Origin: a virus
Strand: one strand, 5' to 3'
Virus record (IMG/VR): IMGVR_UViG_3300032249_000551
Coordinates: 1-54,227 of that record
DNA length: 54,227 bases
Part shown: piece by piece, positions 1,031 through 36,274 of the stretch
Position numbering within the stretch: position 1 is the stretch's first letter
How the letters are laid out: the number at the start of each line of letters is the position of its first letter
Translations under genes and position numbers: made by a program
Notes under the pieces: model-generated
Told to the model about the DNA's origin: nothing
Database searches by the model: none
The model's input: the letters and a program-made list of their open reading frames with translations, nothing else

Positions 1031-1390
1031 TTACTTTTCTTCTTCTGTTTGGGTATTCACTAAGCAATTTTCAATATTGATAAGACGTTCGTGCATCTCT
1101 GTAAAAGCTTCCATAATCAAAGCTTGATTCTCGTAAAGACGGTCCACTCGGTCTTTCACAGTTGTAAACCCCCCATTTTGACTTAGTTCACCATCAACGT
1201 TATTAAGCCGTTCCATCACACCTGCAACACGGTCACGACCTGGAGATTCCTCTTCGCCTTCCCAGTCCCGCATAAAGCGTTCCATCCACTCAGCCCAACG
1301 CTTTGCACGTTTGTAAAACGGGTTTAGTAATATCCCAAGGCTAATGAGAGCACCAGCGACAATGCCGATAGTTGTAAAGGTACTAGTCAC
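1031..1390 (-). CDS. Membrane-anchored coiled-coil protein, possible holin/lysis accessory
   Basis: 119 residues. An N-terminal hydrophobic segment (about residues 5-24, TIGIVAGALISLGILLNPF) is followed by a basic Tyr/Lys/Arg turn, then an acidic helical tail (about 60-119) likely to form a coiled coil. This single-anchor, coiled-coil layout resembles DUF2746-like actinophage membrane proteins found near lysis genes. It sits directly upstream, in transcription order, of the 168-1016 gene and downstream of a second small membrane protein. A spanin-like or holin-accessory role is inference. Confidence 0.6.
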   Translation of the reverse strand: MTSTFTTIGIVAGALISLGILLNPFYKRAKRWAEWMERFMRDWEGEEESPGRDRVAGVMERLNNVDGELSQNGGFTTVKDRVDRLYENQALIMEAFTEMHERLINIENCLVNTQTEEEK

Positions 1391-2729: not shown

Positions 2730-2898
2730 ATATGAATATTCCTGCATACAATGCGATGTAGATTACGAAAAAGAACGCAGCATCCATGATGCAGAACCTA
2801 GGTATGTCTGCGACAAGTGTGGCTACGCTCTTCAACGGGTTTATAACTCTTTTGGCCTTCAATTCAAAGGCTCAGGGTTTTACAAGACTAGTAACTAA
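2722..2898 (+). CDS. FmdB-type zinc-ribbon protein
   Basis: 58 residues: MPKYEYSCIQCDVDYEKERS, then YVCDKCGYALQRV and a SFGLQFKGSGFYKTSN tail. This is the full FmdB/CxxC_CxxC_SSSS zinc-ribbon pattern, including the typical F-x-G-SGFY-x-TS ending. Members are widespread small regulatory-like proteins of unclear biochemistry. It is rightward among leftward genes, coupled to the 38-residue gene before it, and its stop overlaps the convergent gene 2895-3197 by 4 bases. Confidence 0.8.
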   Translation: MPKYEYSCIQCDVDYEKERSIHDAEPRYVCDKCGYALQRVYNSFGLQFKGSGFYKTSN

Positions 2899-3197
2899 TC
2901 TTCTTTAGAGTATTCCTCAATAAGCTGTAAACAAATAGATTGCTCTGACATTAAGTAATTTTCAATTTCAGAACGACGAAGAGCTATTTGTTCTTCAGTT
3001 TGGGTAACAATCTCTTCTGAGAGCTCATCAAGGTGTTCCTTATACTGCTCAACCATGTAACCCAATACGGACTGCATAGTGGCTGCTTGTAGTTGTGCTT
3101 TTTCCCATCTATCTTCAATGGCTTTGCGTTTTTTTCCACGTAAGAAGTCTTTTTGCTCTGCTTGATTGATTGCGGCTTTATCTTGACGTTTGCTCAT
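2895..3197 (-). CDS. Hypothetical coiled-coil protein
   Basis: 100 residues, almost entirely predicted helix: a basic N-terminal 35 residues (SKRQDKAAINQAEQKDFLRG) then an acidic heptad-like stretch (about 50-98). No family recognised. It lies 17 bases downstream of the proteasome-like gene in the same direction, so the two may be co-expressed. Its stop overlaps the stop of the rightward FmdB-like gene by 4 bases. Confidence 0.55.
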   Translation of the reverse strand: MSKRQDKAAINQAEQKDFLRGKKRKAIEDRWEKAQLQAATMQSVLGYMVEQYKEHLDELSEEIVTQTEEQIALRRSEIENYLMSEQSICLQLIEEYSKED

Positions 3198-3214: not shown

Positions 3215-3763
3215 CTATTTGTATTGCTCAACAACCTGAATAGGACCAGAAGTATTTACATCTAGCTTTGCAGCAATCTCAATTGCTTTTTCGGGCTTTG
3301 CTCCTGCATGTAAAGCGCCTATTGCATAGTCAGAACCAGAGCCTACTCCGTAGATTCCATTTCCTGACCGAATTACAGATAAGTCATCACCGATGTCAAA
3401 CAACTCTCCACCAACAGCCATAATAAAGCTAAACCGATTGTCTTCCGCTTTTCCATCGCTTTTGCCTTCGTTAAAATCATAACCATTATCAGTTAAACAT
3501 TTTCTAAGAGAAGGCATTGCTTTGGTAATCATGAAATGATAAATGTCTTCAGAATCTTTTAAAGTTAGTTTTGGAGGTACCCAGAAATGCTGTACAACAT
3601 CACACGGTTGAACTTCACCACTTCCTGCGACTAAAAAAGCCCCACGTTGTGTAATTTTTTTCATGTCTGGATGGTTGTAACGACGCCCACCATCACCAGT
3701 TACCTGATTATCTGCGGCAATAACACACTTGTCTTTATATTGAACAGCAACGATGGTTGTCAT
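3215..3763 (-). CDS. Proteasome beta/HslV-like Ntn-hydrolase peptidase
   Basis: 182 residues from ATG 3763; a GTG at 3769 is in frame, but GGGGGTGAG sits at Shine-Dalgarno distance only for the ATG. After Met removal the protein begins TTIVAVQYKDKCVIAADNQV, the N-terminal threonine signature of the 20S beta/HslV family. Counting from that Thr, the conserved Asp falls at 17, a Lys pair at 34-35 (HslV Lys33 region), and GVGSGSDYAIGAL matches the late GSG motif. Length fits HslV (about 175). No HslU partner is visible. Phage head-maturation proteases and host proteasome-like enzymes are both possible comparisons; the fold call is firm, the role is not. Confidence 0.8.
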   Translation of the reverse strand: MTTIVAVQYKDKCVIAADNQVTGDGGRRYNHPDMKKITQRGAFLVAGSGEVQPCDVVQHFWVPPKLTLKDSEDIYHFMITKAMPSLRKCLTDNGYDFNEGKSDGKAEDNRFSFIMAVGGELFDIGDDLSVIRSGNGIYGVGSGSDYAIGALHAGAKPEKAIEIAAKLDVNTSGPIQVVEQYK

Positions 3764-3888
3764 ACTCACCCCCAGGTAGAAGAACCCCCCTAGGTTACCA
3801 TCTAAAACAGCCTTTTGGGGAATGTCCGTTTTGGGTAATATAACCTAGACGGGGTTTAAAAGCCCCCTAGCGGTCCTTACGCTGCGGT

Positions 3889-4398
3889 TTAGGCGTCTAG
3901 GTACTTAGGACGTCCAAAACCCTCAATAAAGACTGAGAGGCCCTTAGAGTTCTTTTTATAGGCACGAATCTTCTTAGCGCATTCGCCGCCGTTGCGTTCG
4001 CTTGCTTTCTTCTTCTTTTCTCCAGAAGTGTTTCCTTCAACCGTAGTTACCGTTCCGTCACCGTTGTCTTTAACTACAATGCCTACGTGCTCAATAGGAG
4101 CTCCGCCTTCTGTAAAGTCAAAGTAAACAATGTCACCTGGTTTTGGGGTAGCTTTTGATGCTTCTGTCCAAGTCCCTAGTTTTTTAAATGCTGCTGCACC
4201 TGCAACTGTGGATACTGTGTTAGGAATCTTGACGCCAGCTTGATGGGCACACCACATCAGAAAACTACCGCACCAAGGTTGGAAATTTGCTTTAGTAAAA
4301 GCTCCATACTTAGTTTGGTTATCTTTTGGTCCTTCTACATACCCGACTTCTTTAAGGGCAACGTCAACGATTGCTTTAGCTGTTCCTAACTCTGTCAT
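3889..4398 (-). CDS. CHAP-domain endolysin
   Basis: 169 residues forming a single CHAP (Cys/His amidohydrolase/peptidase) domain: Cys43 in FQPWCGSFLMW, His104 in PIEHVGIV and a downstream Asn123 in EGNTSG provide the usual triad. It would cleave peptidoglycan amide or cross-bridge bonds at lysis. There is no signal peptide and no separate wall-binding domain; the C-terminal KIRAYKK...GFGRPKYLDA is basic. The holin-like genes at 1409-1606 and 1031-1390 follow downstream. TAATG coupling to the basic 60-residue gene upstream. Confidence 0.85.
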   Translation of the reverse strand: MTELGTAKAIVDVALKEVGYVEGPKDNQTKYGAFTKANFQPWCGSFLMWCAHQAGVKIPNTVSTVAGAAAFKKLGTWTEASKATPKPGDIVYFDFTEGGAPIEHVGIVVKDNGDGTVTTVEGNTSGEKKKKASERNGGECAKKIRAYKKNSKGLSVFIEGFGRPKYLDA

Positions 4399-6758: not shown

Positions 6759-6961
6759 GCTTGCACCGTATGTCCGAAGTCTTCTGAGCATTGCCAGTAT
6801 GACTCTTTAGCCCCAACCGACTTCTTGTTCAAGTTGTACCCAGCGCCTTTGCGAGCAGTAACGCTAGTAACCTTCTTAGGAGTAAACTCTATCTTCTCCA
6901 TAGAGGAACCACATTGAGGACAAGCCTTCTGGTCTTTTCTAAACTCCTCGTTGCGACTCAT
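6755..6961 (-). CDS. Zinc-finger-like hypothetical protein
   Basis: 68 residues with ACPQCGSSMEKIEF near the N-terminus and SYWQCSEDFGHTVQ at the end, i.e. C-x2-C plus C-x5-H, probably one zinc site. The intervening segment is basic (PKKVTSVTARKGAGYNLNKK). ATGA-coupled on both sides: to the GNAT-like gene upstream and the 92-residue gene downstream. Confidence 0.5.
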   Translation of the reverse strand: MSRNEEFRKDQKACPQCGSSMEKIEFTPKKVTSVTARKGAGYNLNKKSVGAKESYWQCSEDFGHTVQA

Positions 6962-7350
6962 TGGCGGCTAAAGTCAATCATGCCACGCATCTGTGACTCT
7001 CGTGAACGAGCAACCCTCTCAGGCATTTCACCACCGACCTTCTTAGCCCAGCTTTCACCTGCCTCTGTCATCAAGTCAGAGTGCTTAGGTGAGATACCTG
7101 CATTTGCTGAGTTGCTTTTAGCGGTGTTCCACAACTTGGTTGCAAGACCCTTGTTACGGTGCTTTGGGTGTGTCTCAAGACCCATCACTTCGCCTTGGTG
7201 GTCTAAGGTCATGTTGGACATCAACTGACCGCTTTTAGAGTCAGACAAAACATAGAAGTGTGGGTGAGCTGGGGTGAACCAGGGGTAGTACTGAATCTTG
7301 TGAGTACCGTCGTCCCAAGACTTAGACTGTGGGCTACTTTGCTCGCTCAA
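6958..7350 (-). CDS. GNAT-like N-acetyltransferase
   Basis: 130 residues. GEVMGLETHPKHRNKGLATK (about residues 53-72) carries the GNAT motif A, with the R/Q-x-x-G-x-A acetyl-CoA pyrophosphate loop at HRNKGLAT. The fold would be short but complete. The C-terminal SDLMTEAGESWAKKVGG resembles the end of the second small GNAT at 26238-26546, so the two are probably paralogues. Substrate unknown. Overlaps the 45-residue gene upstream by 17 bases. Confidence 0.65.
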   Translation of the reverse strand: MSEQSSPQSKSWDDGTHKIQYYPWFTPAHPHFYVLSDSKSGQLMSNMTLDHQGEVMGLETHPKHRNKGLATKLWNTAKSNSANAGISPKHSDLMTEAGESWAKKVGGEMPERVARSRESQMRGMIDFSRQ

Positions 7351-7519: not shown

Positions 7520-7939
7520 TTAGATACGTCCGCCATCTCGTCCATTTTTGACGTAAGACTCTTTGCTAGGGTCAAACTCAGGAAAACTTCTTTTTATAGC
7601 TTTTAGATTATCATCTTGACCAAGTACTGAGGCGACTTGACCCTTAACTTTGAAAGCTTTGCCCGCAAAGATGGTCTTATCACCATGAGCGTTCTTAGGA
7701 AACTCAGTTCCCTCAGCAGGCTCTACCTCATAGACGTTGCCGTGGTGTACTGGGTACTCGCCACCGTCGTTTGCTCCGTAACCACTAATCACTCTACTTT
7801 GGGCGTGCTTAAGTGCGTAATCTAAATCAGAGGTAGCCCAAGCCGTTCCGTGCTCAGTTCTTGATTTAATAACATCCCCTGGCTTGAGAGTCTCAATGGT
7901 CCCGTGGAAGAGGGCGCTAGAGAGGTTATTCTGACTCAT
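7520..7939 (-). CDS. Arr-like ADP-ribosyltransferase-fold protein
   Basis: 139 residues. LFHGTIETLKPGDVI, HGTAWATSDLDYALKHA and NVYEVEPAEG follow the order of the rifampin ADP-ribosyltransferase (Arr) family: the HGT NAD-binding motif, a (Y/W)-x-T-x-D-x-A helix, and a V-Y-x-VEP strand. It would use NAD+ to modify an unknown target. It is the first gene of the leftward block next to the large divergent region. Similarity is by pattern and activity is not shown. Confidence 0.5.
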   Translation of the reverse strand: MSQNNLSSALFHGTIETLKPGDVIKSRTEHGTAWATSDLDYALKHAQSRVISGYGANDGGEYPVHHGNVYEVEPAEGTEFPKNAHGDKTIFAGKAFKVKGQVASVLGQDDNLKAIKRSFPEFDPSKESYVKNGRDGGRI

Positions 7940-10197: not shown

Positions 10198-11556
10198 ATG
10201 ACATACGCAATTCTTATCTCAGGTCAAGTAAATACAACAGATACAAAGCAAGTAATTATCGCAAGTCATAACGGCAACACTCATACCTTCATGCGTGTAA
10301 CAAATGGTGGTCGTGGTGAAAGTAATTCATGGAGTGCAAGAGAGTTAGATGAACACAACTCAATCGGCACACTTGATTACAACTTAATTGGTGAAGTGCT
10401 ATCAACACCACTAACAAGTGTTGATGAAGTTGCACTTAACAATAACGAGATACCAAATGTTTTAATACAGAAACTTACAAAGCAGTATCGCTTACGCAAT
10501 CTAACAATAGATACAACACGCACTATCCAAAGTGTTGTTGATGAAGTGCAGGTACTAATTGAACAAGACCCTGCACTATTAAGTAAGTATCGCTCTGACG
10601 GCAGAAGCGATAAGCACGCCACAACTAAGACCGAAGGGACAAAACAAATGACACCACGCAACACAATCAACCCAATCGCTAACGAAGCAATAGTGATTAA
10701 CAAAGTAGAACGCAACGATAAAGAAGAACGCACACTTGCGTTCATACCTTCTTTAACAAGTGAAGCGGTACGCACTTATGTACCACGCACTTTCGCTGGC
10801 AACTTAACAGAAGACCAACTCTATACATACGCATTGAAGTCAAAGAAGAATGTATCTATTCAAGGTCATGCAGGTACAGGCAAGACAACTTCTTTAATGA
10901 CATTCTCTGCAAAGAATGGTTTGGAGTTTGGTTCAATGAGTTGTAATGCAGGTGTAGAGCCTTCACAATTCTTTGGTCGTTATGTTCCAAATGCAGAAGG
11001 TAAGTTGGAATGGCGTGACGGATTATTTACGCACTTCTTTCGTAATGGTGGAGTGTTAGTAATTGACGAAGCGAACTTTCTTCCACAGAAAATTGCTTCT
11101 GTATTACATGGTGTTCTTGACGACCGCCGAGTATTAACTTTGTTAGAGCATGACGGCGAAGTTATTACTGCAAATGAAAACTTACTTATCGCTATGTGCT
11201 ACAACGACGGCTACAAAGGTACTTCTAAGTTTAACGAAGCGTTCGCAGACCGCTTTTGGATTAAGTTAAACTTTGAGTACGACACCGACATTGAAAAGAA
11301 GTTTATTCCTTCTAAAACTTTGTTGGAACTTGCAACTTCAATGCGAGCAGACACAATCGCTGGCACTTATGAAACACCTGTATCAACTCGTTTGCTAAAG
11401 CAGTTTGTTGATTTAGCACAGAACCTTAGTTACGACTTTGCAGTTGATAACTTTGTTAATAACTTCCGCGAAGATGAACGCTCTAGCGTGAAACTTCTTT
11501 TGGACTCTCAACGACACAACTTGGAACTAGAACTTATCGGAAAGGTGAGTGAGTGA
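10198..11556 (+). CDS. MoxR/CbbQ-like AAA+ ATPase
   Basis: 452 residues. Residues 1-150 are an unrecognised domain; 151-180 are linker-like. The AAA+ core has Walker A GHAGTGKTT (about 222-230) and Walker B GVLVIDEAN (about 285-293), with MoxR/NorQ-type features (FFGRYVPNAEGKLEWRDG pore-loop region, NEAFADRFW sensor region). MoxR ATPases work with VWA partners to remodel or load cofactors into target proteins. The VWA partner follows directly, with GTGA overlap. An internal ATG at 10648, behind the repeated CCGAAGGGACAAA motif, could give a 302-residue core-only product. Confidence 0.8.
   Translation: MTYAILISGQVNTTDTKQVIIASHNGNTHTFMRVTNGGRGESNSWSARELDEHNSIGTLDYNLIGEVLSTPLTSVDEVALNNNEIPNVLIQKLTKQYRLRNLTIDTTRTIQSVVDEVQVLIEQDPALLSKYRSDGRSDKHATTKTEGTKQMTPRNTINPIANEAIVINKVERNDKEERTLAFIPSLTSEAVRTYVPRTFAGNLTEDQLYTYALKSKKNVSIQGHAGTGKTTSLMTFSAKNGLEFGSMSCNAGVEPSQFFGRYVPNAEGKLEWRDGLFTHFFRNGGVLVIDEANFLPQKIASVLHGVLDDRRVLTLLEHDGEVITANENLLIAMCYNDGYKGTSKFNEAFADRFWIKLNFEYDTDIEKKFIPSKTLLELATSMRADTIAGTYETPVSTRLLKQFVDLAQNLSYDFAVDNFVNNFREDERSSVKLLLDSQRHNLELELIGKVSE
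10631..10643 (+). repeat. 13-mer CCGAAGGGACAAA, copy 1
   Basis: Exact, inside the AAA+ gene's linker (encodes Thr-Glu-Gly-Thr-Lys). An ATG follows GAAGGGA after 8 bases. Confidence 0.8.
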
Positions 11557-13535
11557 CAATGAGTACCTTCTTTATAGAACAACAAGCAGAACAAGAAAAG
11601 AAGCAAGCACTAAAGCGCAAGCGCGTTGGTGCGTTAGCAGGTGTGTTCTCTAAAACTCTTTCGGTATTAACAACTCACAAAATTAGTGTGAATGTTGTTG
11701 ATAGAAAAGACATTGGCGCACCTGCTTATTCATCTACAAAAGAAGTTTGGTTGAATGTTGCTCACATAAAAGATGACTTCACACCAAATGCAATCGCTAG
11801 TTACAACGGACTTGCGTTCCACGAATTAGCACACTTGCGATTTACTCCACGCAACGGCTCACGACTTGTTCAGAAGATTAAAGATGAACAAGCACAGAAT
11901 GAATTGTGGGAAGCGTTCAACTGTTTAGAAGATAGTCGTATTGAGTTTCTTCTTACAGGTTGGTTGCCTTCTACAAAAGCGTGGCTTGTTGCAACTATGT
12001 GTGACTACTTGCTCTCTGATGAAGAAGCAATAAGTCGTGCGTTCCCACTTGTTTATGGTCGCAAGTATTTACCTGTTGAATTGCGACAACTAGCAAGTGA
12101 CAACTTTATTAAGCCTGAGATACAACAAGAGATAGCAAATGTTATTGACAAATACAATGCGCTATCTCTTGTCGGTAATGAGAATGTTGATGTTGCTTTC
12201 AATCTCATAAAGAAGTTTGCAGAACTACTTAGTGAGTTACCTGCACTTCCACAATCACCACAAAGCGGTGAAGGTGAAGGCACAACAATTACTATCCGTA
12301 TCAAAAGCCCACATGGTCACGAAGGCAGACCAACACAAGGCTACGAGTCAAGTTCTGTGCGCCCTGCAACTAAAGAAGAACAAGAGCGTGCTAAGAAGAA
12401 CGCACAAAAGAATGTTGTTGAAGTAATCATAGATACAACACCAAAAGAAAATACAAAAGAAGATGTGTCCGAAGGGACAAACTCTGATACACCAACACAA
12501 TCAACACCAACACAATCAACACCAAAAGATAATTCTTTTGATGATGATTTTGAGTTTGATGATTTTGATTTTGATGATGATGTTGATGATGATGTTCAAT
12601 CACCTTCTACACCAAAAGAAGGTGGCAAGGGTATCGGTAACGAAGCAGGTAAAACAGGTAGCAACAATCAAGTAACTGATTTACTTAATGACATTCTTTC
12701 TGATGTTGTTAAAGAAGTTAGTAAAGGTATCAACGACATAGCAAAGCAACTCGGTGTTGATACACAACTTGACGGCGGTAACGCTAGAACTCCTAACAAA
12801 GCAGATTACAACGAAGTGCGTATTCCCGAAGAACTATCTTTGCTTGCAAAGAAGTTTGGACTTGAACTAGAACGCTTACAAGCAGAGTATGACCCTGCTT
12901 GGTTAAATGGTGAGCGTTCAGGAAAATTAAATGCAGGTCGTTACTTACGCGGTGACGAATTAGATACTGTGTTTGATGAATGGTCAGAGGGTCGTGATGA
13001 TGTTGTAAGTATTGAAGCGGTTATTCTTTTAGACCGAAGTGGGTCAATGAGTGGTCGTAATGCTGACAACGCTTACAAATCTATGTGGGCAATCAAGAAG
13101 GCACTAGAGCGTGTAGAAGCGCGAACAACTGTTGTTACTTTTGATAGTCGTACCAATCTTCTTTATGGTGCAGATGAAAAAGCAGGTACAACAATCAGAG
13201 ATGCTGGTGCTGACGGCGGTACAAATCCAAACGACTCACTTCTTTATGCAAAGCGTGTTCTTGCAGAGAGCGACAAAGCAATCAAGGTTCTATTCATGAT
13301 TACTGACGGCGCATGGAATACAGAAGAAGGCGAGAAGGCAGTTACAGACATGAAGAACGCAGGTGTTCTTACTTGTCAGGCACTTATCTCTAACTATGCA
13401 CACACCGCAGAGGACTTAGATAACTACCGACATTCTTTTGAGTTAATGACTTCAATGCAATCTGCAAAAGACATTCTCACTCTCGGTAAGAACTTAGTGC
13501 GACTTGCAATCACACGCAATCTAGTTAATGCGTAA
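11553..13535 (+). CDS. VWA protein with HExxH metallopeptidase-like domain (CobT/DUF2201-like)
   Basis: 660 residues, GTG start overlapping the AAA+ stop (alternative ATG 11559). GLAFHELAHLRFTPR (about 86-100) is an HExxH zinc-peptidase motif, followed by NCLEDSRIEFL, a third-ligand-like segment. A Thr/Ser linker and a very acidic stretch (about 328-350, mostly D/F) precede the VWA domain, whose MIDAS residues are in ILLDRSGSMSG (about 492-502), GGTNPNDS and MITDGAWN. This order matches putative metallopeptidase-VWA proteins paired with MoxR ATPases. Target unknown. Confidence 0.75.
   Translation: MTMSTFFIEQQAEQEKKQALKRKRVGALAGVFSKTLSVLTTHKISVNVVDRKDIGAPAYSSTKEVWLNVAHIKDDFTPNAIASYNGLAFHELAHLRFTPRNGSRLVQKIKDEQAQNELWEAFNCLEDSRIEFLLTGWLPSTKAWLVATMCDYLLSDEEAISRAFPLVYGRKYLPVELRQLASDNFIKPEIQQEIANVIDKYNALSLVGNENVDVAFNLIKKFAELLSELPALPQSPQSGEGEGTTITIRIKSPHGHEGRPTQGYESSSVRPATKEEQERAKKNAQKNVVEVIIDTTPKENTKEDVSEGTNSDTPTQSTPTQSTPKDNSFDDDFEFDDFDFDDDVDDDVQSPSTPKEGGKGIGNEAGKTGSNNQVTDLLNDILSDVVKEVSKGINDIAKQLGVDTQLDGGNARTPNKADYNEVRIPEELSLLAKKFGLELERLQAEYDPAWLNGERSGKLNAGRYLRGDELDTVFDEWSEGRDDVVSIEAVILLDRSGSMSGRNADNAYKSMWAIKKALERVEARTTVVTFDSRTNLLYGADEKAGTTIRDAGADGGTNPNDSLLYAKRVLAESDKAIKVLFMITDGAWNTEEGEKAVTDMKNAGVLTCQALISNYAHTAEDLDNYRHSFELMTSMQSAKDILTLGKNLVRLAITRNLVNA
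12469..12481 (+). repeat. 13-mer CCGAAGGGACAAA, copy 2
   Basis: Exact, in the VWA protein's disordered linker (Ser-Glu-Gly-Thr-Asn). No start codon follows. Confidence 0.8.
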
Positions 13536-19321: not shown

Positions 19322-20674
19322 ATGGCTTACGCAATCAAACGCAAAGGGCGATTTACCGCCTATTACCGCCAAGACGGAAAAGTCAAATCCGTAGGCACAT
19401 TCTCATCTAGGGCTAAAGCAATTAACGCTGGATTACTCGCCGAAGAAGGCGAGTTTAATCTAATGCCCGAAAACCAAAAGACATTCAACACTTATTTAGA
19501 GCAATTAGCACTCTCACACGACATCAGAGTAATCACCCGTAAGAATTACATTACCCTGCTAAAGAAGTATGCCCAACCTTCTTTAGGGTCTAAGCGCATC
19601 TCCGCTATCACCAAGAAAGACATAAAGACCCTGTTTGATAATCTCGCAAATCAAGGGATTAGCCCAAGCACAATCTCACACCTAAAGACTTCTTTAGGTT
19701 CTCTATTCAGGCTCGCCGTTGATGATGACGCAATAGCCACAAACCCAACCCACCGCATAAGACTAAGCACGCCCAAGCCAGACCCCACATACACCCTAGA
19801 GCCTAAAGACTTTCAGGCTATCTTAAAGAACTTACCCACAGACGGAAGCCGTCTTTTAGCCCAGTTTCTTGTTGTTAGCGGCTGCCGATACGGAGAAGCC
19901 ACAGAACTTAGAGTCAAGGACTTTAACTTTGAGTCAAAGGAAGTCTATGTCAGACGCACAGTTTCAGATGTAGGCTACGCCTACCAGCCCGCAGGGACAA
20001 AGTCCGAGGGGACAAGATTTCTCATTGTGCCAGCTACCAAGAACGGCAATAAAAGAACTGTTGTTCTGAGCTCAGCTCTAGTATCAGAGATAAAGAAGTT
20101 TGTAAAGGCAAAAGCCTTAGCAAAAGAAGACCTAGTCTTCTCAAAGCACCTGGTTGAGAAGAAGAGTAAAATAGAAAGCCCTATCACAAGCGTAGGGAAG
20201 CCTTACACCATTGGAAGCAGGAGATTCCAACACGCAACGGCGTATTCATACAATGTCGGCGGTTGTAGGTGTGAAGCATGTAAAGAAGCGGTCAGGGAGT
20301 ACCGCAATCACTATAGAAAGGACAAGGGAAAGGGCAAGGTAGAAAGCCTTAGCAAAAGCACTAGCAAAAGCCTTAGCAAAAGCGAAAGCCCTAGCAAAAG
20401 CCTTAGCAAAAGCCTTAGCGAAAGACACCTACCTCGTGACAAGTGGCGAGCCATTTGGAACGAAGCCATCAACAAGTCAGGGATTGGTTGGTACCCCACT
20501 ACTCACGACCTTCGGCACGCTAACGCTACCCAGTTGTTAAAGAACGGGGTAGATGTGCATGAGGTCAAAGAGCGGTTAGGTCACCAGTCAATCGTAACTA
20601 CGGAGAGATACCTGCATCGTATCCGTCACCAGCAGTCAAACGCAGCCGAGGTTGTGAATGACTATTTGGAGTGA
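19322..20674 (+). CDS. int: Tyrosine integrase with embedded zinc-like module
   Basis: 450 residues. N-terminal arm-binding-like region (AYAIKRKGRFTAYYRQDGKV), SAM-like core-binding domain (about 55-145), then the catalytic domain: Arg in SGCRYGEATELR, H-x-x-R in THDLRHANAT, H in LGHQSIVTTERYLH with the nucleophile Tyr in ERYLH. Unusually, between the first Arg and the H-x-x-R lies FQHATAYSYNVGGCRCEACK, a GCRC-x-x-C zinc-like module usually found as separate small phage proteins, followed by a (SLSK)n repeat at about 341-367. It should integrate or excise the phage genome. The GTGA at its end is not used as start by the next gene. Confidence 0.9.
   Translation: MAYAIKRKGRFTAYYRQDGKVKSVGTFSSRAKAINAGLLAEEGEFNLMPENQKTFNTYLEQLALSHDIRVITRKNYITLLKKYAQPSLGSKRISAITKKDIKTLFDNLANQGISPSTISHLKTSLGSLFRLAVDDDAIATNPTHRIRLSTPKPDPTYTLEPKDFQAILKNLPTDGSRLLAQFLVVSGCRYGEATELRVKDFNFESKEVYVRRTVSDVGYAYQPAGTKSEGTRFLIVPATKNGNKRTVVLSSALVSEIKKFVKAKALAKEDLVFSKHLVEKKSKIESPITSVGKPYTIGSRRFQHATAYSYNVGGCRCEACKEAVREYRNHYRKDKGKGKVESLSKSTSKSLSKSESPSKSLSKSLSERHLPRDKWRAIWNEAINKSGIGWYPTTHDLRHANATQLLKNGVDVHEVKERLGHQSIVTTERYLHRIRHQQSNAAEVVNDYLE
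19989..20016 (+). repeat. 13-mer, copies 6 and 7 (tandem)
   Basis: CCGCAGGGACAAA (19989-20001) followed by CCGAGGGGACAAG (20004-20016, 11 of 13) in an integrase loop (Pro-Ala-Gly-Thr-Lys-Ser-Glu-Gly-Thr-Arg). Confidence 0.75.
20341..20425 (+). repeat. 12-bp tandem repeat encoding Ser-Leu-Ser-Lys
   Basis: About seven units of an AGCCTTAGCAAA-like 12-mer, encoding SLSK/TSK/SPSK variants within the integrase. Related unit sequence recurs at 20107-20130 (still coding, different context) and at 21214-21241 just outside a coding region. Confidence 0.7.
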
Positions 20675-20676
20675 TT

Positions 20677-21207
20677 ATGAAACTAACAACAAAAGGAAAG
20701 ATAGTGTTTGGGTCGTTGTTTACAGCGATGTTTTTGATGGCAGGAATGTTGGCTTTACCGCCAGCATTTAGCCCAACAAAAGCCGAAGCACAAGCAATAG
20801 AGCAAGAAGCGCAAGAAGATGTACTAACCAAGTATGTCAATGCAGATGATTTAACTGACTCACAGTTAGTAGAGTTACTGCAAGCCGTAGGCTTCAAAGG
20901 TCACGACCTTAAAGAAGCATGGGCTATTGCGAAAAAAGAATCACATGGTAATCCGCTATCACACAACGGTAATCGTAAGACAGGAGACAACTCCTACGGT
21001 CTATTCCAAGTAAACATGCTTGGTTCATTAGGTGATGCAAGGCGAGATAAGTTCAATTTGGCTTCTAATGCTGAACTGTTCAACCCTGTGGTTAATGCCC
21101 AAATCGCTTATCACATGAGCGATGGTGGCACAGATTGGAGCGCATGGAAAGGTACTGAAACTGACGTAGTAAAGCGTTGGTTAAAGAAGTTTCCATCAGA
21201 GCAATAA
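20677..21207 (+). CDS. Secreted lysozyme/transglycosylase-like protein
   Basis: 176 residues from ATG 20677 (GGAG 5 bases upstream; the overlapping GTG 20671 has no ribosome-binding site). A signal peptide (basic MKLTTKGK, hydrophobic core 9-30, AEA cleavage near 38) precedes an acidic linker and a lysozyme-like domain: AWAIAKKESHGNPLSH with the likely catalytic Glu88, DNSYGLFQVNMLG, and NPVVNAQIAYHMSDGGTDWS. It would cut peptidoglycan outside the membrane. Located after int and bounded by a terminator, it looks like a moron or lysogenic-conversion gene rather than part of the CHAP lysis cassette. Confidence 0.75.
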   Translation: MKLTTKGKIVFGSLFTAMFLMAGMLALPPAFSPTKAEAQAIEQEAQEDVLTKYVNADDLTDSQLVELLQAVGFKGHDLKEAWAIAKKESHGNPLSHNGNRKTGDNSYGLFQVNMLGSLGDARRDKFNLASNAELFNPVVNAQIAYHMSDGGTDWSAWKGTETDVVKRWLKKFPSEQ

Positions 21208-21950: not shown

Positions 21951-22038
21951 AGTCTCTACACGAGTAACAAATACCGTCAGAAGATTCTTTTGGTAGTTCT
22001 TCAAACTCTTCAAAACATTTTACGCACTTTATTTTCAT
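21949..22038 (-). CDS. 29-residue zinc-ribbon microprotein
   Basis: ATG at 22038 overlaps the reductase stop (ATGA). Product MKIKCVKCFEEFEELPKESS, then ICYSC near the end: C-x2-C and C-x2-C in 29 residues. Position directly after nrdJ resembles the small partner proteins sometimes trailing ribonucleotide reductases, but there is no redox CPYC motif. Function unknown. Confidence 0.5.
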   Translation of the reverse strand: MKIKCVKCFEEFEELPKESSDGICYSCRD

Positions 22039-24152
22039 TGACTATCCTTGATTAATTTGACCTCACAAGCGTCTGTTGTGCAGTAAGCCTCTCCGATAGC
22101 ATCGGCTGCCATACCTGCGTACACGCCTGATAAGTCAATAGGCATAAGGCTCATGCGACCTTCTTCATATTCTTCAGATGTAATCTGTGTGTAAGGCATC
22201 TGTGGATAGACCATGTTACCCATTGGTAGGAAACTAATCGTCTTTAGCTGACCATCGTGCATGTGCAAGATAGAAGCAATAGAGTCTGATTCCTTCTCAG
22301 GGTCAAAGGTTACAGTTACAGAGACAGAGTTATCTGACCAGTAACGCTGTACGACTACAGCGAGTGCAACCTTTTCATGAACTGAAACTTCTTTTTCTGC
22401 TCTCTTAGCGGTAGTCTCAATTGGGAAGAATACAACGCTTGTTGTTTCTGGAGATTCAGAAGCGGGTTCAACTCTGTAGTTTGCCATCTTAAATAGCGGA
22501 AGCATTGGGTCAGAGTTTGCAAAGCGGATTGCTCTGTTAAAGAACTTACCGCCTGATGCCCAGTGAACGCCAGGAGACTCTCCAGCAAGGATAGAGACAG
22601 TTCCCGATGGCTTTACTGTGGTCATCTTGATTGACTGACGGATGCCAAGCCACTCAGAGTAAGACTCGTCATACTTCTTTACGACTTCGTAGCCAGTGTT
22701 TAGCCAGTCACGCAATACAGTCCAGCCATTGTTATCTGCAAAGTTAGCAATACCAGAGATTGATGTTCCAATACGGCGGTTACGTTGCATGATTGCGTTG
22801 GTCTCTTCCCAGTGAGTTGGTAGAAGAGTTACAGTCTTGGCGTAAAGATAGGCAAACTTCAATGTTCTTTTGAAGTCTTCTAAATCAGTGTGGCGATTCA
22901 AGTAAGTCTCCACAAGTGTGCAACACTCATAAGACTCAAGAGATTGTTCAGCGCAAGGGTTGTATCCAGCGATTCGCCAATCTTTGTTGTTAGGTGGGTC
23001 AATAAGACGACCGTACTTGCGTGATACATCCATCCACACAACTCCAGGCTCACCATTACGAACGATGCCGTCAATAATCTTAGAGAAGTCTGAACCGACC
23101 TTTGCCTCTACAGAGTTGTTAGACATCCAAGCCCACCCTGGATTAGCAGGGTCATAAGAGTTACGCTCAGGAAAGACTTCTGGGTTCTTAAGGTTTAAAA
23201 AGGTGTCGTCATCAATCTGACCTATAAGAAGCTCAGCACTACGGCGTACATTTCCTGAAACAACACACACGCCAATCATGTTGCCAATGTCTGCTATGTC
23301 AGTCTTAGATAACTTCTCACCAACACGACCAGCAAACATCTTGTTGATGTGGTTGTGGAGTCTTAGGAGAGGTTCGTGTCCTGCTGCAGTTCCACCAAAG
23401 GTCTTGATTGGCGTACCTGCTGGGCGGATTTCTTCGTAATCAAATACTGGAGCCTTCGTATCTGGCTTGAGGTAGGCATTGATGAGGGCGGCTGTAGATT
23501 CAACCCATCCTTCTCTGGTGTCAGGGATTTTATATTCGTAAGTTTCTTTTGGTTCATAGATTGTGAAGTCCTTGTCTGCTCCCTTGTCATCAAAGCCAAC
23601 GCCCACTCCGAGCATTGAGGCTTCCATAAGGAAAGCGAATGGTTTTGCTGGGTCGGTTTTTACCATTGACCCAGTAGATACAAACGCACAGTTCTGCAAA
23701 GCAGCAGAGTTGCGTTGTTCATTAACGAGTGGGGTACCCATTACCCATAGTCCACGTCCAGGTGGAGTCCACTTCAGGTTGAAGAGACGGTCAAATGCTT
23801 CTTTAGCCGAGGCTGCTGCCTTAGCGTCTGACCAAGGAAGTCGCTGACGCTTGGCGTGGTCTTTCTGTAGGGAGTACATGCCGTTGATGACTCGCTCACA
23901 TACATCTACCCAAGTCTCCTTAGTACCATCTGCCTTAAGTCGTGAATAGGTACGAAGAAAAGTAATTTCTCCAACTGAGTTTCCAGCAGCATCCCTATAC
24001 CCGAAAGGAGCCTTCTTGTCCTTGTACGAAGCGACGAAGTCATTTGTTAATTCAAAAGAAAACAGACCCAATTCCTTACCACCATTTCTATGTTTATGTA
24101 AATACCCCTTAACAGGGAACCCTATTGTGCCGTGGCGAAACCTACCACGCAC
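22035..24152 (-). CDS. nrdJ: Class II (adenosylcobalamin-dependent) ribonucleotide reductase
   Basis: Up to 705 residues. FELTNDFVASYKDKKAPFGY, LRTYSR, AALQNCAFVS (first redox Cys), NPCAEQSLESYECCTLVE (thiyl Cys plus Glu) and a C-terminal CTTDACEV redox pair match the monomeric B12-dependent RTPR type. It makes dNTPs without oxygen, provided the host supplies cobalamin. The start is uncertain: GTG 24152 has no ribosome-binding site, conserved sequence begins only near residue 31, and TTG 24071 or CTG 24065 sit next to AAGGAA. No cobalamin riboswitch box was found upstream. Confidence 0.9.
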   Translation of the reverse strand: MRGRFRHGTIGFPVKGYLHKHRNGGKELGLFSFELTNDFVASYKDKKAPFGYRDAAGNSVGEITFLRTYSRLKADGTKETWVDVCERVINGMYSLQKDHAKRQRLPWSDAKAAASAKEAFDRLFNLKWTPPGRGLWVMGTPLVNEQRNSAALQNCAFVSTGSMVKTDPAKPFAFLMEASMLGVGVGFDDKGADKDFTIYEPKETYEYKIPDTREGWVESTAALINAYLKPDTKAPVFDYEEIRPAGTPIKTFGGTAAGHEPLLRLHNHINKMFAGRVGEKLSKTDIADIGNMIGVCVVSGNVRRSAELLIGQIDDDTFLNLKNPEVFPERNSYDPANPGWAWMSNNSVEAKVGSDFSKIIDGIVRNGEPGVVWMDVSRKYGRLIDPPNNKDWRIAGYNPCAEQSLESYECCTLVETYLNRHTDLEDFKRTLKFAYLYAKTVTLLPTHWEETNAIMQRNRRIGTSISGIANFADNNGWTVLRDWLNTGYEVVKKYDESYSEWLGIRQSIKMTTVKPSGTVSILAGESPGVHWASGGKFFNRAIRFANSDPMLPLFKMANYRVEPASESPETTSVVFFPIETTAKRAEKEVSVHEKVALAVVVQRYWSDNSVSVTVTFDPEKESDSIASILHMHDGQLKTISFLPMGNMVYPQMPYTQITSEEYEEGRMSLMPIDLSGVYAGMAADAIGEAYCTTDACEVKLIKDSQ

Positions 24153-24233: not shown

Positions 24234-25739
24234 CTAGTCTTCTAGTGAAGACTGAATAATTTTTGTGACTGTATCTTCTTTTAAGGCTTGAGGTAACTCT
24301 CTTAGAGCTTGAGCTTTGTCTCCGAAGATAGCGGAAAGAACTCCACCAGCGCCTTGACGCTGTGCTGTAATCTGAATGAACTCTTTGTCCGAGGCCATGT
24401 CGTTAACTTCTTTAACCATTTTGATTAGGCGGTCAACTTCTTGAGAGACGTTTGGGTCTGCGTATCCACCGTTCATTTCTTCAGCAAAACGCATAAAAGC
24501 AACTCTTTGACCCTGCATTTCAATCATTGAGGTCATCAAAGCCTTGAGTTGGTCTTTGGTTTTGACTTCAATAGGGAGGTTGAAGGCACACGTATTTAAG
24601 GGTTTGAAGGCTGGACAGTTGGCAGCTACAAAGCAAGTGTCACACTGTCTTAAAGAAGATTGCTGGGTTTGTACTACTGGGATATCCATCAGGACGTCTT
24701 TGCCGTCATCGTCTGTTTCAACAACAGTCTTCATCTTGTATCCAAAAACAGGTAGGTTCTGAACCTCTGAAGGGTCTCTTTGGACTACTTCTTGACGCTC
24801 AAGTTTCCGCATCTCAGAGACACTGTTATCAGAAAGTACCCCCCCTAGTTCCATCAAACCACTCATGAGTGGTGTGTCACTGTTATCAGATACTTTGCCT
24901 TCTTTACCCCCATCAATGATGTGGAAATTAGGTGTTTTCTTGTCCATGGATGCCTCTAACTGTAGGTATGACCAGACCGCAACTCTAGTCGCTTCAAGGG
25001 TGTTATCTTGGCTAAACCCCAAATAGTCTAACCCTGCCTTCTCTACAATGCGCTTGTAGCGAGGGCGTGCTTGGTCTTTCATGCGCTTTGGGTAACGCTT
25101 AATTTGGGCGCCATCCCATACAATTGTTTCGCCTCTTCGCATTGGGCTAAGCCATGACAATGTGCTGGCAGTGCTAAATGGTACCTGTCGGATGTTGTCT
25201 GGCTTGGCACAGGCAAGGGCGTGGTACTGAGTCCCAAACTGCCTCTGGTAGCCCCGTGTGAGGGCTGCTAGGCTGGTTACAGACTCAATCTCGTCGTTGG
25301 GTATAACTACGTTCTGGTAGGTCTGAGACATTAGTTTAAGGGATGGCAGACCGTACTCTTCATGCCAGACTACCCAGAACTTAGGGTCGTGCTCATAAAA
25401 GGGTCTCTGGGCTTCTACCCAATCCTTGCCTAAAACCATAGAGTCAAACTCCATAAAGGCTGATGCTCTCTCAGAGTTATCCACAAGGAACTCTTGGTAA
25501 TCAGCGGCTAAAGAAGTTAATTCTTCTTTTGACAGTCCTGCTTTGTCAGCTTGAGCTGCACCAGACTCAATGAACACCTGGGTGTCGGCATCAAAGTGCT
25601 CGCTAATCAACCATCTTTTGGTAGTGGGCAAACCTCTTTTGCGTAACGTCCAAAAGTTGAGTCCCATTGACTCAACCTTGGAACCAAAAAGAAGATTGCG
25701 GTTGGAGCCTACTTCAGCCCCGCTAAAGATGACACGCAT
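24234..25739 (-). CDS. Conserved phage protein of unknown function, TIM-barrel-like
   Basis: 501 residues from ATG 25739 (TGATG overlap with the HAD-like gene). Residues 1-270 show alternating strand/helix sequence: VIFSGA, QVFIESGAAQAD, AFMEFDS, YHALACAKPDNIRQVPFSTA, WLSPMRRGETIVW. The ESGAAQ segment recalls the DSGGFQ of tRNA-guanine transglycosylases, but this is weak. A Cys4 site, CDTCFVAANCPAFKPLNTC, lies at about 365-383. The C-terminus is helical. I cannot assign a function; a nucleobase-modifying TGT/DpdA-like enzyme is one possibility. Confidence 0.55.
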   Translation of the reverse strand: MRVIFSGAEVGSNRNLLFGSKVESMGLNFWTLRKRGLPTTKRWLISEHFDADTQVFIESGAAQADKAGLSKEELTSLAADYQEFLVDNSERASAFMEFDSMVLGKDWVEAQRPFYEHDPKFWVVWHEEYGLPSLKLMSQTYQNVVIPNDEIESVTSLAALTRGYQRQFGTQYHALACAKPDNIRQVPFSTASTLSWLSPMRRGETIVWDGAQIKRYPKRMKDQARPRYKRIVEKAGLDYLGFSQDNTLEATRVAVWSYLQLEASMDKKTPNFHIIDGGKEGKVSDNSDTPLMSGLMELGGVLSDNSVSEMRKLERQEVVQRDPSEVQNLPVFGYKMKTVVETDDDGKDVLMDIPVVQTQQSSLRQCDTCFVAANCPAFKPLNTCAFNLPIEVKTKDQLKALMTSMIEMQGQRVAFMRFAEEMNGGYADPNVSQEVDRLIKMVKEVNDMASDKEFIQITAQRQGAGGVLSAIFGDKAQALRELPQALKEDTVTKIIQSSLED

Positions 25740-26233
25740 CAATCAGACCAGAGTTCAGCCACTGTATCTTTTGGTCTTTGTGCTTGTTCTGAGCGTGCGA
25801 TGTTTACTTTGTTGATAGAGTCTTCAATGTCCGACCAGCGTCGTACTTTCTTTGGGGCATCTGGTCGGTTTTCAACCACAGCAAACCCAGGATGGCTGAA
25901 GAGAAGTGCTGGAACTCTTTGCTCCATAAAAACCCAAGCACACATAGTTGGGTCAGCATCTACGTACATCTCAATCGGAGCTCTGGAACGAGAGAGAGTG
26001 AACTGTCTCTTCTTTAGGTCCTCACCTGCCAGCTCAAAAGAAGAATCAATCAAGTCGTCGTAGTTAATGATTCCGTGCGAGTTTAACCATTGCTTGGCAT
26101 CTGCTTCTTTGCGGGAGGTCATGATGGCAACACGGTTATTGATATTTAGGGCGTAGTAAAGCGCCACTCCTGCACGGATTGGTTCTCCAGAATCCGAACT
26201 TAGTACGCCGTCTAGTGATACGAGTATGTTCAT
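25739..26233 (-). CDS. HAD-like protein lacking the nucleophilic Asp
   Basis: 164 residues. MNILVSLDGVLSSDSGEPIR is the HAD motif I position, but the usual D-x-D reads S-L-D: the first (nucleophile) Asp is Ser. Motif II looks intact (AIMTSR) and YVDADPTMCAWV replaces motif IV. The middle carries the cap-less HAD Rossmannoid pattern. Likely an inactive phosphatase fold used for binding, or an enzyme with altered chemistry. Coupled to the 501-residue gene downstream; 4 bases from the GNAT-like gene upstream. Confidence 0.6.
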   Translation of the reverse strand: MNILVSLDGVLSSDSGEPIRAGVALYYALNINNRVAIMTSRKEADAKQWLNSHGIINYDDLIDSSFELAGEDLKKRQFTLSRSRAPIEMYVDADPTMCAWVFMEQRVPALLFSHPGFAVVENRPDAPKKVRRWSDIEDSINKVNIARSEQAQRPKDTVAELWSD

Positions 26234-35941: not shown

Positions 35942-36274
35942 TTAGTCCTTACTGAAAATAAACTCCTTAAGAGTCATCTTCTTAGCGAATGATTTTTTCC
36001 ACTTACGTATTAAAGCATTTCTTTCTCTGTGGCTCAATCCTCCCCAGATTCCGTGTGGTTCGTCACGAGTGACTGCATCCCACAAACAACCTTTTAGTAC
36101 AGGGCATGGACTTTTACCATTTTCACCAAGGCAATACACCTTAGCTTTATCGGCAATTAATTTATATCGGTCCTTATCTCTTGGAGGATAGAAAATGTCT
36201 TCTTCCTCTTGGCTTTTAGGAGCGGCTCCAAAGCAACGTGCTTTAGACCACCACGGCGATTCATTTTCATACAT
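35942..36274 (-). CDS. WhiB-family Fe-S transcription factor
   Basis: 110 residues. Four Cys (14, 48, 57, 63) and the G-(I/V)-WGG turn (residues 75-79 in EPHGIWGGLSHRERNAL), followed by a basic C-terminus for DNA binding. WhiB proteins are confined to Actinobacteria and their phages; they bind [4Fe-4S] and the primary sigma factor. Odd: the usual C-x2-C is expanded here to C-x8-C (residues 48-57), a 6-residue insertion that may change cluster properties. Confidence 0.85.
   Translation of the reverse strand: MYENESPWWSKARCFGAAPKSQEEEDIFYPPRDKDRYKLIADKAKVYCLGENGKSPCPVLKGCLWDAVTRDEPHGIWGGLSHRERNALIRKWKKSFAKKMTLKEFIFSKD

Follow-up and report, generated by a model that had tools for sequence, protein, structure and literature searches.

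A viral stretch of 54,227 nucleotides (IMG/VR record IMGVR_UViG_3300032249_000551, hereafter the window) was found to carry a gene for a group I proteasome-like threonine peptidase that is predicted to be catalytically competent. With moderate confidence, it is interpreted as an unfoldase-independent, self-compartmentalising late peptidase of an actinobacteriophage, of the type formed by HslV and BPH (bacterial/beta-proteobacterial proteasome homolog; PDB 5ovs and 5ovu). Viral proteasome relatives are on record, whereas this common actinophage branch of them has not been described as such before. The new elements are this branch and its abundance, two genomic architectures in which the peptidase has fixed positions, the distinction between phages in which it is core and those in which it is optional, and catalytic residues that are intact throughout. 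The features of the window are listed in Table 1.

Table 1. Positions of the peptidase gene and of other features of the window
Feature	Position	Strand	Remark
Group I proteasome-like threonine peptidase, 182 aa	3215..3763	-	Thr2 becomes Thr1 once Met is removed
Likely ribosome-binding element, GGGGG 5 nt before the peptidase ATG	3764..3774	-	Predicted from sequence
CHAP/NlpC-type endolysin	3889..4398	-	Directly upstream of peptidase
100-aa protein	2895..3197	-	Directly downstream of peptidase
Holin-like/phrog_9869 protein	1031..1390	-	Unbiased late-operon anchor
CobS/MoxR-like AAA+ ATPase	10198..11556	+	Sole candidate phage-encoded unfoldase-like partner seen; not adjacent to peptidase
CobT-like protein with VWA domain	11553..13535	+	Partner of the CobS-like ATPase
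WhiB-family regulator	36011..36253	-	Actinobacterial host marker

Peptidase gene, catalytic residues and fold

The minus-strand reading frame encodes a protein with the N-terminus MTTIVAVQYKDKCVIAADNQVT. The open reading frame listing extended it to 3215-3769 via a GTG codon. The ATG at 3763 was preferred because GGGGG lies 5 nt upstream and because an M-T start is near-universal among homologs (Met at the start in 73/80, Thr at position 2 in 78/80), so the coordinates in the preliminary description were right. Since nearly all homologs begin with M-T, a propeptide appears to be absent. In mature numbering, the motifs singled out earlier were all present: Thr1, Asp17, the Lys of PDMKK and GSG at residues 46-48. 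The catalytic Lys was assigned to K35 because two residues are inserted ahead of the Lys33 position. Among 211 aligned homologs (unprocessed numbering), Thr2 was kept in 210 and both Asp18 and Lys36 in all 211, as were both glycines of the second GSG motif. Loss of the catalytic Thr in relatives, an outcome that the preliminary description had raised, did not occur. Thr, Asp and Lys were all invariant in a 63-sequence alignment of the portal-site set as well. As judged from the coding sequences, the peptidase is under purifying selection (omega 0.08 and 0.14), with a median dN/dS of 0.080 over 856 pairs in the window peptidase group and 0.139 in the ct2KA10 peptidase group. RNA structure in the 125 nt upstream of the gene was not unusual (z -0.45), and promoter and terminator counts were at chance level.

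The proteasome/HslV-like fold proposed earlier was borne out by profile matches, a structural model and PDB comparisons. PF00227 matched with an E value of 5.5e-5 and 23.3 bits (gathering cut-off 22.4), and PHROG_1040, 'peptidase HslV family', matched at 1.7e-33, so phage members have already been catalogued. That family is broad, mixes subfamilies and gives no function beyond the HslV-like label. The AF2 model (24-sequence alignment; pLDDT 91.4, pTM 0.86) placed helices 51-59, 74-92, 144-152 and 157-167 around two sheets in an alpha-beta-beta-alpha proteasome fold, with a strand at 111-117 after the first two helices and a final strand at 176-181. In the structure search, BPH came first (TM 0.72-0.73), with HslV and then 20S beta below, and all of the 50 PDB matches listed were BPH, HslV/ClpQ or 20S proteasome chains. 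Profile scores followed the same order, at 46.8 bits for BPH, 34.6 for HslV and 26.5 for 20S beta. In a maximum-likelihood tree with weak deep branches, the window proteins grouped with the ct2KA10 group, near the homologs of phages DSL-LC01, Pumpernickel and Hum25. Another clade (99.1/100) held homologs from T5-like, Moorella and Psychrobacter phages together with plasmid homologs from rhizobia, Paraburkholderia and Streptomyces. No placement in a different Ntn family emerged, fold and profiles being proteasome-like. On its profiles and predicted structure, the window protein is a proteasome-fold threonine peptidase.

Distribution and position in two phage types

A tblastn search of annotated phages returned 143 records, most of them T5-like phages of Salmonella and Escherichia with around 31% identity, and also Actinomycetia phage DSL-LC01 (35%) and ct2KA10 (42%). 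A second query listed Arthrobacter and Microbacterium phages with homologs, and more distant copies were present in the cultured Microbacterium phage Pumpernickel and Arthrobacter phage Hum25. In IMG/VR, one scan yielded 70 peptidase loci, most at 58-93% identity, and a wider scan found the peptidase in at least 574 of 600 candidate stretches. Scans of genome contigs found no cellular relatives; they used one or two short patterns each and are weak evidence of absence. A WhiB gene was present in 19/22 related records (window included) and in 21/24 of a second set, and among control genomes the WhiB profile matched in Corynebacterium only. These genes indicate an actinobacterial host, as had been presumed. 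Other homologs (Pumpernickel L076, T5-like Eps7 L074, Pantoea AAS21 L082 and Tunturi_5 L079) adjoin thymidylate synthase, ribonucleotide reductase (RNR), DNA ligase or thymidylate kinase genes, settings that differ from the late position of the window peptidase.

The position next to the lysis genes noted in the preliminary description was recovered, with an endolysin directly upstream. In the window-like group, the endolysin cluster was found in 96/124 loci (immediately upstream in 78) and the 100-aa protein cluster in 75/124. Related contigs of 95-100 kb shared the order endolysin, peptidase, small genes, holin-like gene, terminase, portal, 252-aa protein, major head protein, contractile tail, replication, B12-dependent RNR, integrase and CobS/CobT. 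In this layout the peptidase and the endolysin read in the same direction, and the head and tail genes lie downstream of the peptidase, the head genes at a distance of about 10 kb. When the holin-like gene was used as anchor, the peptidase was present in 40/40 window-type contigs with room for it. The cultured relatives by portal were the Streptomyces phages BRock and Alone3 (55%), and the peptidase was absent from both; in Alone3, portal and capsid are separated by an annotated scaffolding protein.

Further genes of the window included an adenosylcobalamin-dependent ribonucleoside-triphosphate reductase above its NCBIfam cut-off (22035-24152) and a queuine tRNA-ribosyltransferase-like gene (24234-25742; phrog_887) that may encode a DpdA-type enzyme for the modification of DNA with 7-deazaguanine. 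By eye, 6958-7350 resembled a GNAT acetyltransferase and 7520-7939 an Arr-like ADP-ribosyltransferase, the latter with no Pfam match. A tyrosine integrase with an SLT lysozyme-like gene immediately after it (19322-21207) was conserved in the ~100-kb relatives, which suggests a temperate lifestyle.

In the ~39-kb phages of the ct2KA10 group, the peptidase was next after the portal in 80/81 loci. These loci had been found through the peptidase, and the count was therefore repeated with unbiased anchors. With the ct2KA10 portal as anchor, the peptidase lay 17-96 nt downstream in 68 of 78 loci with room; ten loci lacked it, and nine of these contigs, searched whole, held no copy elsewhere. It was also absent from the cultured portal relative WRightOn (portal 42%). 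The counts of 40/40 with the holin anchor and 68/78 with the portal anchor identify the peptidase as a core gene of the ~100-kb type and as an optional one of the ~39-kb type. In a joint tree, window-type peptidases were placed among portal-type ones, which suggests that the gene may have been transferred between the two phage types.

At the portal site, peptidases were 25-100% identical behind portals that were 81-100% identical. Two downstream neighbours were as diverse (median 37% and 46%, compared to 42% for the peptidase), so this diversity is not specific to the peptidase and does not by itself point to an arms race. A reading of the site as one of allele replacement was dropped for the same reason. 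In the ~39-kb actinophages (positions 20785-26605 in L073), the genes after the portal-peptidase pair, for a Gly-rich 160-aa protein and a 1711-aa protein, greatly exceeded portal and terminase in diversity.

Proposed mode of action and alternative roles

In the favoured mechanism, Met1 would be removed by host methionine aminopeptidase to expose Thr1, which Asp17 and the Lys33 equivalent would then activate. Synteny suggests that the peptidase is made late. Given a fold like that of HslV and BPH, the most likely assembly is a double ring made of beta subunits only, and this ring would probably be entered without a dedicated AAA+ unfoldase, as in BPH. Such entry is argued for by the failure to find an HslU-type ATPase and by an 18-residue charged loop after helix H2 at the pore-loop site, a loop that was modelled with low confidence (pLDDT about 60) and is shorter in the 39-kb relatives. 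The most likely task of the enzyme late in infection is to trim or degrade phage or host proteins that are unfolded or flexible. Its core status in the ~100-kb lineage and optional status in the ~39-kb phages point to a fitness or proteostasis factor, not an obligate assembly enzyme.

The preliminary description had reported no visible HslU-like partner. This held for ATPases of the HslU/ClpX type, as AAA_2 gave no match over the cut-off in 18 phage records, although some of these are fragments, as IMG/VR contigs are, and an unfoldase could have been missed. It did not hold for AAA+ ATPases as a whole, because a CobS-like ATPase is encoded 6 kb away, adjacent to its CobT-like partner (10198-13535), and this pair is common to the window lineage and DSL-LC01. 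A two-part machine, in which the CobS-like ATPase and the VWA protein would unfold substrates for the peptidase, appears quite improbable. The ATPase was found in every checked window-lineage contig of at least 53 kb and in DSL-LC01, and BRock and Alone3 lack both genes. However, the two genes are on opposite strands, no HslU- or Mpa-like docking tail is visible at the ATPase C-terminus (...GKVSE), and the CobS-like ATPase was absent from ct2KA10, from the peptidase-carrying 39.8-40.3-kb phages and from T5-like Eps7. The CobS marker used, phrog_249, matched all 14 control genomes and hence marks the AAA+ class, not CobS alone. The 39-kb phages, which have the peptidase without CobS, led to rejection of this ATPase as an obligate partner of the whole peptidase family; it may help the peptidase in one lineage and is not a general partner. 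A host ATPase could also serve the phage peptidase.

The peptidase could instead act in virion or prohead maturation, with the proteasome fold taking over from an S78-, S77- or S14-type head protease in the cleavage of internal, scaffold or portal-associated virion proteins. The 39-kb phages make this role attractive, since the gene has a fixed position in them, after the portal and ahead of internal, scaffold and capsid genes, and since no S78 protease was found there. In one contig (G008), the stretch from portal to major head protein contained no known protease; in the search for S77 head proteases, the control gave no match anywhere. A general head-protease role is nevertheless unlikely, since the ten loci without the peptidase have closely related portals and since BRock and Alone3, with their terminase-portal-scaffold-capsid order, and WRightOn build heads without it. 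In addition, DSL-LC01 carries annotated capsid proteases beside the peptidase, and in the window lineage the gene is distant from the head genes. The morphogenetic protease offered in the preliminary description thus agrees with gene position in the ~39-kb relatives and conflicts with these clean absences. A narrower proposal, in which the peptidase serves the actinophages that carry it as a maturation protease of a new type, linked to virion or portal, conditionally needed and passed between unrelated kinds of phage, is considered slightly less probable again.

Removal of specific host proteins late in infection, as host takeover or counter-defence, would fit the accessory status and high diversity of the gene in the 39-kb phages and the presence of homologs in many unrelated phages, but the equal diversity of the downstream neighbours, the late position and the lack of recognised defence-related neighbours make this role improbable. 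The 20S proteasome is common in Actinobacteria, and the preliminary description had considered a competitor or inhibitor of it. Phylum and fold would suit such a poison of the host enzyme, yet the catalytic residues, unneeded in a decoy, are fully kept, the 20S beta profile scored well under those of BPH and HslV, and no alpha-like partner was seen; this idea found no support and is extremely unlikely. Cultured and manipulable phages with distant copies (Pumpernickel and Hum25) and cultured relatives without one (BRock and WRightOn) make the role of the peptidase directly testable.

Comparison with known proteasome relatives

Phage proteasome homologs (PPH and AAH) were reported in 2021 as widespread and without known function, with no function-suggestive genomic context and no actinobacteria-specific phage carrying AAH (Fuchs et al. 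2021, PMC8665760), and BPH was annotated in a Citromicrobium phage in 2022 (PMC8953757). No known function for any phage-encoded proteasome homolog was found in the literature searched. Anbu and connectase illustrate that a proteasome fold does not need a closed ring to function and can also serve in a ligase (PMC8665760).

Among these systems, the 20S proteasome beta subunit has a propeptide and an alpha partner, whereas the window peptidase starts with MTT, matches the 20S profile more weakly, and has no alpha-like gene in the window. Anbu has a C-terminal helix H5, whereas the window peptidase model ends in a strand, and no Anbu chain was among the listed profile and PDB matches. PPH, the other phage-rich subfamily besides AAH, are likewise phage-encoded group I homologs; they have about 140 residues and lack H2, which is modelled at 74-92 in the window peptidase. 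AAH, whose cellular members come from alpha-proteobacteria and actinobacteria, resemble it in being group I, phage-borne and without a known AAA+ partner (Fuchs et al. 2021, PMC8665760). A tblastn search of plasmids gave homologs with 25-31% identity in rhizobia, Paraburkholderia and Streptomyces, taxa that fit the AAH distribution in that study; these presumed AAH, identified as such from taxonomy only, sit in the 99.1/100 clade without the window protein. On Sinorhizobium fredii plasmid pSfreNXT3b (L234, 4001-4546), a cellular proteasome-like homolog is flanked by nifQ and by an iron-sulfur assembly gene, with nifS close by, and its relatives are present on many legume-symbiont plasmids.

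HslV (ClpQ) shares with the window peptidase the proteasome beta-like fold, the TTI N-terminus after Met removal and the GSG motifs. Membership of HslV itself was not upheld, as the scores were far under the family cut-offs (22.9 against 157.75 bits for TIGR03692 and 23.8 against 137 bits for NF003964) and no HslU was found in the 18 phage records. BPH is the best solved relative (profile E 2e-11). The two have in common the Thr1/Asp17/Lys33 arrangement, the lack of a propeptide, a charged loop after H2 and no known unfoldase (PMC8665760). They differ in that identity is about 20% and that the window peptidase is phage-borne and known here from sequence and model; in the tree, two BPH chains formed their own pair (98.4/99) apart from it, with deep branches weakly resolved. 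By sequence comparison, the window peptidase is of BPH/HslV type yet not HslV, separate from the presumed AAH and not matching PPH.
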